From positions 6,842,501-6,906,500 of the forward strand of contig CP107851.1 in NCBI GenBank assembly GCA_036013505.1: a DNA stretch of 64,000 nt, read 5' to 3'. Shown here one piece after another: positions 3 to 42,456 of the stretch. The stretch comes from Streptomyces sp. NBC_00510 (GTDB lineage: Bacteria > Actinomycetota > Actinomycetes > Streptomycetales > Streptomycetaceae). The notes beneath the pieces are model-generated. The model had not been told where the DNA came from. It did no database searches and saw only the letters and a list, made by a program, of their open reading frames with translations. The position numbers were made by a program, and so were the translations under genes. How positions within the stretch are numbered: position 1 is the first letter of the stretch; every line of letters starts with the position of its first letter.

Positions 3-1523
3 GGCACCCAGGTGGTGTCCAACGAGCAGTTCAACCAGCTCTTCACGATGCACGGCACCGTGATGCTGCTGATGTTCGCGACCCCGCTCTTCGCCGGCTT
101 CGCGAACTGGATCATGCCGCTGCAGATCGGCGCCCCCGACGTCGCGTTCCCGCGGCTGAACATGTTCGCCTACTGGCTCTACCTGTTCGGCTCGCTGATC
201 GCGGTCGCCGGCTTCCTCACCCCGAACGGCGCCGCCGACTTCGGCTGGTTCGCCTACTCCCCGCTGACCGACGCGGTCCGCTCGCCGGGCATCGGCAGCG
301 ACCTGTGGATCATGGGTCTGGCGTTCTCCGGCTTCGGCACGATCCTCGGCTCGGTCAACTTCATCACCACGATCATCTGCATGCGCGCCCCCGGCATGAC
401 GATGTTCCGGATGCCGATCTTCGTCTGGAACGTGCTGCTCACCGGTGTGCTGGTGCTCTTCGCTTTCCCGGTGCTGGCCGCCGCGCTGCTGGCCCTGGAG
501 GCCGACCGGAAGTTCGGTGCGCACGTGTTCGACGCCGCCAACGGCGGCGCCTTGCTGTGGCAACACCTCTTCTGGTTCTTCGGGCACCCAGAGGTGTACA
601 TCATCGCGCTGCCGTTCTTCGGCATCATCAGTGAGGTCATCCCGGTCTTCTCCCGGAAGCCGATGTTCGGCTACGTCAGCCTCATCGCGGCGACGATCTC
701 GATCGCCGGCCTCTCGGCGACGGTGTGGGCCCACCACATGTACGTCACCGGTGGAGTGCTGCTGCCGTTCTTCTCCTTCATGACCTTCCTGATCGCGGTA
801 CCGACCGGTGTGAAGTTCTTCAACTGGATCGGCACCATGTGGAAGGGCTCACTGAGCTTCGAGACACCCATGCTCTGGGCCATCGGCTTCCTGATCACCT
901 TCACCTTCGGTGGTCTGACCGGTGTCATCCTGGCCTCGCCGCCACTGGACTTCCACGTCTCCGACTCGTACTTCGTGGTGGCGCACTTCCACTACGTCGT
1001 CTTCGGCACGGTCGTCTTCGCGATGTTCTCCGGCTTCCACTTCTGGTGGCCGAAGTTCACCGGCAAGATGCTCGACGAGCGCCTGGGCAAGATCACCTTC
1101 TGGACGCTGTTCATCGGCTTCCACGGCACCTTCCTCGTCCAGCACTGGCTGGGTGCCGAGGGCATGCCCCGCCGCTACGCGGACTACCTGGCCGCCGACG
1201 GCTTCACCACGCTGAACACCATCTCGACGATCAGCTCCTTCCTGCTGGGCCTGTCGGTCCTGCCGTTCGTCTACAACGTGTGGAAGACGGCGAAGTACGG
1301 CAAGCCGGTCGAGGTGGACGACCCGTGGGGCTACGGCCGCTCGCTGGAGTGGGCGACCTCCTGCCCGCCGCCGCGGCACAACTTCCTCACGCTGCCCCGC
1401 ATCCGGTCCGAATCCCCGGCCTTCGACCTCCACCACCCGGAGATGGCCGCTCTGGACCAGCTGGAGAACGTCGGCGCGGCTCCGGCCGTCTCCGGCGGCG
1501 ATGAGAAGGAGAGCGGCAAGTGA
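3..1523 (+). CDS. ctaD: Cytochrome c oxidase subunit I, 5' end cut by the window edge
   Basis: This is the catalytic heme-copper subunit of the aa3-type terminal oxidase, which reduces O2 and pumps protons in the plasma membrane. The frame is already open at base 3, so the true start lies upstream. Visible signatures are TMHGT (heme a histidine), [14 protein letters not shown] (CuB ligand and cross-linked Tyr), WAHHMYV (two more CuB histidines) and AHFHYVVFG (heme ligands). Many hydrophobic segments fill the rest, and the C-terminal tail is soluble and actinobacterial in style. The gene overlaps ctaF through GTGA, so the two are probably translationally coupled. Identity is secure; only the N-terminus is missing. 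Confidence 0.97.
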
Positions 1524-40975: not shown

Positions 40976-41746
40976 TCACCTCACCAGCCGCCACAGGGAC
41001 GCCCATTGCCCGGCCGTGAGGTCCTTGGGGAGGGCGTGCGGGGGGACGCGTTCGGCACGCAGCCAGTCGCGCAGTGCCGTGCGGTCGAAGTGGCCGGTGC
41101 GGGCGAGGACTTCGCGCAGGCCGCGGCCCGGGCCGGTGAACACCCGCTGGACGAAGGCCTGGTAGGCGCGGCGGTCGCCGGTGACGAGCGGCTGCGGGCG
41201 CCGGGTCATGGTCAGCAGTCCGCCGTCGACGGAGGGTGCCGGGCGGAAGGCGCGGGCGGGGACGCGGGAGTGGAGGGTGAAGTCGTACCAGGGCCACCAG
41301 GAGGCGGTGAGCATGCTGGCGCCGGCGACGCCCGCGCGGCGGCGGGCGACCTCCCACTGGACGAGCAGCACCGCGCACTCCCACCGGTCCGCGGCCAGGA
41401 CGCGCCGCATGATGGTGGTCGTGAGGTGGAAGGGCAGGTTGCCGACGATCACGTGCGGTTCGCGCGGGAAGCGGTAGCGCAGGACGTCGGTGGTGACGAC
41501 GTGCGCGCCGCGCGGGAGCCGCCGCTGCAGGCGCTGTGCGCGTCCCGGGTCGATCTCCACGGCCGTGAGGGGGCGGCCGGTGCGGCTGAGGGGGAGGGTC
41601 AAGGCGCCGTCGCCGGGGCCGATCTCGACGATGGGTCCGCTGGTGGCGGCGACGAGGGCCTCGATGGAGGCGATGACGGTGCGGTCGGTGAGGAAGTTCT
41701 GGCCGAGCTCGTGCCGGCCGCCCACCATGGACCGGTGGTGAGGCAT
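40976..41746 (-). CDS. Erm-family 23S rRNA (adenine-N6) methyltransferase
   Basis: This 256-residue SAM-dependent enzyme should methylate A2058 of 23S rRNA and give macrolide-lincosamide-streptogramin B resistance. It opens with the hallmark LGQNFLTD, then the SAM motif VEIGPGDGALT, the acidic loop VEIDPGRA and the catalytic GNLPFHLT. The family resemblance is to Streptomyces Erm enzymes, some of which monomethylate. ATG 41746 has GGAG nine bases upstream; ATG 41728 is an alternative. KsgA is excluded because the N-terminus and motif spacing are Erm-like. It lies among core genes as an apparent insertion. Confidence 0.9.
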   Translation of the reverse strand: MPHHRSMVGGRHELGQNFLTDRTVIASIEALVAATSGPIVEIGPGDGALTLPLSRTGRPLTAVEIDPGRAQRLQRRLPRGAHVVTTDVLRYRFPREPHVIVGNLPFHLTTTIMRRVLAADRWECAVLLVQWEVARRRAGVAGASMLTASWWPWYDFTLHSRVPARAFRPAPSVDGGLLTMTRRPQPLVTGDRRAYQAFVQRVFTGPGRGLREVLARTGHFDRTALRDWLRAERVPPHALPKDLTAGQWASLWRLVR

Positions 41747-41791
41747 GGGTGTGCACTCCGCGACATGAGAGGTTCCGACGATGGACCCGAT

Positions 41792-41814
41792 GCCGCGGCG
41801 AAGAGCGCCGCGGC
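41792..41814 (-). promoter_or_regulatory. Hairpin between the erm leader peptide and erm
   Basis: GCCGCGGCG and its complement form a 9-bp stem with a five-base loop, overlapping the last base of the leader stop codon. No T tract follows. A ribosome paused in the leader ORF would cover or perturb the first arm. Confidence 0.65.
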
Positions 41815-41852
41815 TATGCCCGGCGCAGCTTGATGTAGTAGGTGCAACCCAT
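41814..41852 (-). CDS. Candidate erm leader peptide with a Lys-Leu-Arg motif
   Basis: The 12-residue ORF encodes MGCTYYIKLRRA and ends 67 bases before the erm ATG. Lys8-Leu9-Arg10 matches the +X+ pattern at which macrolide-bound ribosomes stall, as known for ErmDL-type leaders. A TACCGT hexamer (41860-41865 on the plus coordinate) ends seven bases before the ATG and there is no Shine-Dalgarno sequence, suggesting leaderless translation. Its translation is a prediction. Confidence 0.65.
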   Translation of the reverse strand: MGCTYYIKLRRA

Positions 41853-42456
41853 GTGCCGCACGGTATCCCGGGCCCGGTCGGTTCCGCACGCGGTTTTCCG
41901 CGGTCTCCGTGTGGACGCTCGCGTATGGGGCGGAGCGTCCGGGCCATGTTCCGTCTCACCGGGCCCGGCTTCACTGGTCGCATGACTTCCCGAGACGCCG
42001 TCCTCGTCGCGGCCACCGTCGCCGTCGGCCTCATGGCCGGGCTCTTCTTCGCCTTCTCCGTCGCCGTCATGCCGGGTCTGGCCAAGGCGGCCGACCGTAC
42101 GCTCGTCGACGCGATGCAGCGCATCAACGCCGCCATCCAGAACGGCTGGTTCCTGCTGGTCTTCGGTGGTTCGCTGCTGCTGTGCGCCGCCGCGGTGGCG
42201 CTCTGCCTGCGCGACGGAGGCCGCGGTCCGCTCCCGTGGGTGATCGCCGCGACCGTGCTCTACCTGGCGGTGCTCGTCGTCACCTTCGGCGTCAACATCC
42301 CGTTGAACGACCGGCTGGACGCGGCGGGCGACCCCGGGAGCCTCGCCGATCCCGCCGCCGTGCGCGAGCGGTTCGAGGCGGCCTGGGTCCGCTGGAACCT
42401 GGTGCGCACGCTCCTGTGCACGGGGGCGCTGGGCTGCCTGGGCCAGGCGCTCGTCC

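Follow-up and report, generated by a model that had tools for sequence, protein, structure and literature searches.

An erm gene behind an apparently leaderless +X+ leader peptide and a WblC-type promoter, in a layout that recurs among actinobacterial erm loci

The erm gene and its neighbors

The stretch of DNA analyzed here, 64,000 nucleotides in full and referred to as the window, carries on its minus strand an intact erm gene encoding 256 amino acids (ATG at 41746, stop codon ending at 40976), preceded by the Shine-Dalgarno (SD) sequence GGAG at 41759-41756. Profile comparison, the nearest solved structure, which is Erm(38), and an Erm tree in which the protein stands clear of KsgA identify the product as a 23S rRNA (A2058-N6) methyltransferase. 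As a general Erm it scored 280 bits against the NCBIfam model Erm23S_rRNA_broad, for which the cut-off is 212. The nearest subfamily models were those of Erm(46), Erm(38) and Erm(55); on comparison with these the protein belonged to none of the three, and the cut-offs for Erm(46) and Erm(38) were not reached. The gene product probably methylates A2058 of 23S rRNA and would give MLS resistance.

A preliminary description of the window had placed erm between trpE(G) and DUF1772, and both neighbors were found: trpE(G), with a WWW leader of its own, lies downstream, and a divergent DUF1772 gene lies upstream. The host, whose genome is a single contig of 10.1 Mb, is not Streptomyces coelicolor; the named species closest to it is Actinacidiphila glaucinigra, whose Erm is 95% identical, and these two are the only ones among 35 genomes of the genus to have an Erm of the window type. 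DUF1772 orthologues failed as a marker of the empty site in relatives, and trpE(G) served instead. In at least seven relatives trpE(G) adjoins a divergent DAHP synthase gene, with neither erm nor DUF1772 found in between, and one congener has the trpE-DUF1772 arrangement without erm. Because the trpE(G) sites of relatives are empty or variable, erm looks like an addition within a variable stretch.

Leader, promoter and RNA arms upstream of erm

Ahead of erm, on the same strand, is a 12-codon ORF (41852-41814; ATG at 41852-41850, TAG at 41816-41814) that encodes the peptide MGCTYYIKLRRA, in which Lys8-Leu9-Arg10 forms a +X+ motif. The preliminary description had reported this ORF, had read Lys-Leu-Arg as a +X+ pattern and had noted a TACCGT hexamer ending seven bases ahead of the ATG. 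All three observations held: the hexamer, a -10 box, is at 41865-41860, exactly 7 nt before the leader ATG, and comparison showed that the motif is conserved across the class. An in-frame GTG 9 nt upstream, which would begin a longer leader, was rejected as a start because it overlaps the -10 box. Arg/Lys-X-Arg/Lys is known to arrest ribosomes in the presence of macrolides and, above all, ketolides, with X occupying the P site (ErmDL; PMC8298421).

The published WblC site reads GAAAWY-3-TKGMNN-16..19-TANNNT (PMC7157823). In the window, the AT-rich sequence GAAAAC (41898-41893), which matches GAAAWY, is followed after 3 bp by the -35-like element GTGCGG (41889-41884), which has one mismatch to TKGMNN, and then after an 18-bp spacer by the -10 box. 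The promoter GAAAAC-CGC-GTGCGG-18 bp-TACCGT is thus a predicted WblC/WhiB7-type site with one -35 mismatch. Among the proteins of the host is one of the WhiB family with the AT-hook-like C terminus RPRGRPRK. In S. coelicolor, WblC raises the mRNA of the Erm(O)-type gene SCO6089, which is within the WblC regulon; in Mycobacterium abscessus, WhiB7 binds upstream of erm(41), and mycobacterial erm(41) is reported to be WhiB7 controlled. These observations suggest that the window erm promoter is under WblC control.

The window leader has no SD and its start codon follows the -10 box at 7 nt, as expected of a leaderless ORF. At WblC promoters of S. coelicolor, transcription begins 7 to 8 bp after the -10 box (PMC7157823). 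Given this distance, the 7-nt spacing and the lack of a leader SD, the leader would start at the 5' end of the transcript or one nucleotide in; that is, the 5' end is predicted at the leader start codon or one nucleotide before it.

Four RNA arms can be distinguished between the end of the leader and erm. Arm 1, defined by folding and conserved complementarity, comprises the last leader codons (41825-41817); arm 2, GCCGCGGCG, runs from the G of the stop codon (41814-41806); arm 3 is CGCCGCGGCAT (41800-41790); and arm 4, ATGTCGCGGAG (41766-41756), contains the erm SD GGAG. The 9-bp hairpin previously described as beginning at the leader stop codon does so, at the G of TAG, and is formed by 41814-41806 and CGCCGCGGC (41800-41792) with the loop CTCTT. 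In the predicted fold of the free window RNA, however, arm 1 is base-paired to arm 2, arm 3 to the erm SD arm and the first 11 nt of the leader, AUGGGUUGCAC (41852-41842), to the complementary erm start at 41756-41745 (P = 0.007 for this last pairing). The lock would be the pairing of 41800-41790 with 41766-41758 over the erm SD; the 9-bp hairpin is more readily interpreted as the helix of the ON state (anti-sequestor) than as the lock. The window RNA therefore has mutually exclusive pairings of the ErmC type, one of which hides the erm SD. When folding was followed stepwise with a ribosome at Leu9, arm 2 was predicted to be available to arm 3, so that the 9-bp hairpin could form before the SD arm exists.

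Comparison of actinobacterial erm loci

The preliminary description had proposed a search for the leader, hairpin and erm arrangement in other Streptomyces. Relatives were gathered from the genus, family, class and phylum and from named genomes and plasmids, and a strict rule was applied: TANNNT, 6 to 8 nt, a start codon and an ORF of 8 to 26 amino acids with a terminal [KR]xR. This rule found the layout in 37 of 48 non-redundant actinobacterial erm loci, compared with 0.09% of dinucleotide shuffles, and in none of 27 ksgA upstream control regions; within the window, where 456 stretches were scanned, the erm leader was the single match. Most of the 11 loci that were missed were excluded solely by their spacing, by where the motif lies or by the limits of the search. 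The shared layout consists of TANNNT, 6 to 8 nt, ATG or GTG, a leader mostly of 10 to 25 residues and then a GC-rich post-stop arm, and in the Erm tree a leader is present in all main branches. Leaders in relatives end in R-x-R-R-x or R-x-R-T-A; examples are MCCFACFTRIRRS (Microbispora), MFAFAFTRTRRF, MSVFALIRMRRF, MCGIAVTKVRRV and MGTIFFAPVMGRTLVFRDRRA and, on plasmids, MGSPSIAVTRFRRF [erm(36)] and VGITSVAVIRIRRF [erm(55)], while erm(46) and erm(50) have the design in altered form. The erm(X) leader contains RLR, and a Nocardioides plasmid erm is preceded by a similar leader, MLFHGTASLRLRS....

The promoter and start geometry recur as well. The -10 box is 7 nt from the start in 32 of 45 erm loci, GAAAWY is at the expected place with at most one mismatch in 28 of 43 (compared with 1.6% of shuffles), and an SD-like sequence precedes none of 44 leaders but all 44 erm genes. 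The leaderless leader claimed for the window is thus upheld as a geometry conserved across the class, although it is not peculiar to this locus.

We compared the peptides of the 44 leaders. The first basic residue of +X+ is K or R in 43, specified by five different codons (AGG, CGG, CGC, AAG and CGT); at least 10 different residues occur at X; the second basic position is occupied by Arg in all 44; and the A-site codon of the motif is two codons ahead of the stop in 38. In A. glaucinigra, the sister species, the leader differs from that of the window solely by Y6C and K8R, and the motif is retained as RLR. That +X+ is conserved through varied codons and at a fixed spacing from the stop indicates that both the charge pattern of the leader and its distance to the hairpin are under selection. 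Because the second Arg codons are also within an RNA helix, their conservation alone is no proof of selection on the peptide, and the first basic residue is the cleaner case. The N-terminal parts of the leaders are nearly devoid of charged residues and contain 21% Ala, 11% Phe and 10% Cys (about 4.6% Cys in shuffles).

The alternative pairings were conserved to a similar extent. In 95% of the 44 loci the ON helix was predicted to form ahead of the synthesis of the SD arm, compared with 57% when the spacers were shuffled, and both alternative helices were predicted in 66% compared with 14%. In an alignment of 22 sequences, 85% of cells are paired for the OFF helices and 93% for the ON helices, whereas slid-alignment controls gave 38 to 57% (35 to 57% for ON alone). 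Compensatory changes, such as that in L032, where a G-C pair of the ON helix is replaced by A-U with both sides changed, are few because the sequences are conserved, and we count this against the switch. Pairing of the first 14 nt of the leader with the erm start region beat 95% of shuffles in only 10 of 44 loci, and this clamp is therefore treated as accessory; in L070 the same 14 nt pair with the SD itself. In most relatives a further hairpin, absent from the window, separates arm 3 from the SD arm, and the window thus represents a compact form. A search of Rfam returned no relevant family within the region. An RNA covariance model of the element, run over 150 genomes of the family, gave matches at erm loci only, with the compact window version falling under the threshold.

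When the full-length RNAs of the 44 loci were folded at equilibrium with a ribosome footprint imposed, the SD was not released (mean unpaired fraction, 0.11 before and 0.13 after; P = 0.89), and in the window alone the unpaired fraction went from 0.24 to between 0.02 and 0.25, depending on the footprint edge. This negative result suggests that the switch, if real, needs cotranscriptional kinetics or is more complex.

Several loci depart from the design, among them three of the 11 missed by the strict rule (L044, L057 and L084). L057 keeps the promoter region but has neither the +X+ end nor the post-stop arm, and L044 has no recognizable leader start; both have apparently lost the leader, and their erm genes may be constitutive after this natural loss. 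On a Rhodococcus gordoniae plasmid, the leader of erm(46), MGNTNIAVTEFRRF (L084), has Glu in place of the first Arg/Lys. Its IAVTE resembles the IAVVE arrest motif of an ErmA leader, and this leader has perhaps switched stalling class. The R. gordoniae record was used for erm(46), and L079, annotated as the Prescottella (Rhodococcus) equi pVAPA plasmid, was left out. Contig C80 of genome G264 carries an adjacent pair of erm genes on opposite strands (L045 and L049; 64% and 46% identity to the window Erm), only one of which, by eye, has the conserved leader.

A model for erm control and its alternatives

From the sequence and its comparison we infer drug-dependent stalling, an RNA switch and regulation of the window erm, and we consider it probable that the gene is inducible and controlled at two levels, by a WblC-type promoter and by a leaderless +X+ translational attenuator. 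The promoter would start the transcript at the leader's own AUG, so that the 12-residue leader, acting as the drug sensor, would be read from a leaderless 5' end. In the absence of drug, the leader would be finished, its last codons would pair with arm 2 and arm 3 with the erm SD arm, and erm would be off. A ribosome bound by a macrolide or ketolide would stall when Lys8-Leu9 occupies the P site and Arg10 the A site, covering the message up to about the stop codon; arms 2 and 3 would then form the 9-bp hairpin, the SD would be released, and the Erm made would methylate A2058 of 23S rRNA. Arrest at K-x-R may be weaker than at R-x-R, which counts against this explanation.

Each part of the proposed design has a counterpart in known systems. 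As in ErmDL/ErmD, a short leader with Arg/Lys-X-Arg stands ahead of erm and the predicted stall puts X and Arg in the P and A sites, respectively (PMC8298421); unlike that leader, the window leader has no SD, is apparently leaderless, is served by a WblC-type promoter, has its +X+ two codons before the stop and is otherwise unrelated in peptide sequence. The four-arm logic, in which arm 2 is kept by the leader and the SD is masked by arm 3 until stalling lets 2:3 form, is that of ErmCL/ErmC, but here the stalling motif and peptide are different, the leader is apparently leaderless, and the arms overlap the last leader codons and the stop. The erm(X) leader of corynebacteria is likewise a short leader of an actinobacterial erm for which translational attenuation has been proposed; the available part of that report (PMC3350403) describes neither a leaderless start nor a WblC-type site. 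Leaderless short ORFs act as attenuator sensors in the mycobacterial polycysteine attenuators, although these (Canestrari 2020, cited in PMC9031893) sense cysteine supply rather than a drug and serve other genes. The uORFs of wblC/whiB7 also sense antibiotics in actinobacteria; they are SD led and act with a transcription terminator, whereas the window leader is apparently leaderless and its attenuator would be translational.

The WblC-type promoter, the rise of SCO6089 mRNA under WblC and the binding of WhiB7 upstream of erm(41) would all be accommodated if WblC simply induced the promoter on ribosome stress and the leader were passive. We regard such control at the level of transcription only as unlikely: the negative equilibrium folding agrees with it, but it leaves the conserved +X+ with its varied codons, the fixed stop distance and the alternative pairings without a reason. 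Stalling could instead prevent a terminator hairpin from forming between the leader and erm, as known for whiB7 uORFs, wblC and the ARE ABC-F genes of Streptomyces. GC-rich hairpins do exist in this interval, yet none is followed by a U-run, as a terminator would be, and the alternative pairing stops precisely at the erm SD, a sequence present in 44 of 44 loci. Since actinobacterial terminators can be without a U-run, a terminator could still form here, but we hold transcription attenuation to be quite unlikely.

The equilibrium folding would also suit a third mechanism, in which drug-induced stalling stabilizes the message instead of, or besides, opening the SD; a ribosome near the leaderless 5' end could protect it, and message stabilization is reported for an erm methyltransferase in the available part of PMC5118997. 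The conserved complementarity of arm 3 to the SD would then go unexplained, and we judge this very unlikely. Short ORFs abound and the TANNNT motif is weak, and so the ORF, box and hairpin might have come together by chance. This reading is exceedingly improbable and was rejected: it is at odds with the shuffles and the ksgA controls set against the 37 of 48 loci, and with a leader that turns up in every main branch of the Erm tree as well as at the 15 best Erm(O)-type loci.

Those 15 loci, the best Erm(O)-type loci of Streptomyces (L135 to L149), belong to the Erm(O)/lrm/SCO6089 group, a different Erm clade with a longer leader. In all 15, the start codon comes exactly 7 nt after TANNNT and the leader has a basic-x-R-R stretch (R-x-R-R), in most as RMRRGPGALTGPG, for example in MAAFNAIFNSGLGRGCTYSIRMRRGPGALTGPGSPRR; most also have GAAA[AT] upstream. 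The other hits of the Erm(O) profile (L150 to L159) mostly showed no such leader by the same scan, and the design is therefore not universal among Erm(O)-profile hits. Congener G014 has a distant erm (L155/L003) with a boxed leader of its own, MSIFGITKAFIAVRRPRTGPARAH, preceded by GAAAAC-CGA-TTGCCG and TATCTT.

The occurrence of the same layout ahead of the matching erm in nearly every actinobacterium examined suggests that it is an old, shared antibiotic-sensing switch. More tentatively, and with the odds somewhat against it, actinobacterial Erm genes of at least two major clades might share one ancestral, two-level WblC-driven leaderless +X+ sensor in which the leaderless start and, in some loci, a clamp joining the 5' end to the erm start are integral to the switch. 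Leaders of erm genes are a textbook case of drug sensing, and those known come mainly from Firmicutes. In 2024, a family-wide survey of erm upstream regions and uORFs found no universal pattern of conservation and proposed independent origins (PMC11264731). If true, a shared ancestral sensor would overturn, for Actinobacteria, this view of unpatterned, independently arisen erm leaders. Erm attenuation as such is already known; what is new is the class-wide, WblC-linked, leaderless +X+ design. We found neither a leaderless erm leader nor a class-wide layout in the openly licensed literature, and older work on lrm/mlr, ermSF, ermSV and erm(36), which reportedly treats leader control, may hold part of it.

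One leader design recurs through the sampled Actinobacteria, including the plasmid-borne erm(36) and erm(55) and, altered, erm(46) and erm(50), and it would join WblC/WhiB7 induction, leaderless initiation and nascent-chain arrest, which are usually studied apart. If the model is right, transcripts should begin at the leader start codon, toeprinting should show a stop at the X codon, and ketolides as well as macrolides should induce erm. Whether a leaderless start can serve a stalling leader under antibiotic stress also becomes testable.

The window contains a second apparently leaderless attenuator leader within about 1 kb of that of erm. The trpE(G) leader, MYAQQTHLQWWWTADPAAH (40821-40762, minus strand), has a TAGGGT-7-ATG layout (40834-40762), and congeners have trp leaders with a similar layout. 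Because the trpE(G) leader shares the arrangement of -10 box, 7 nt and ATG, leaderless attenuator leaders may be a general actinobacterial device.
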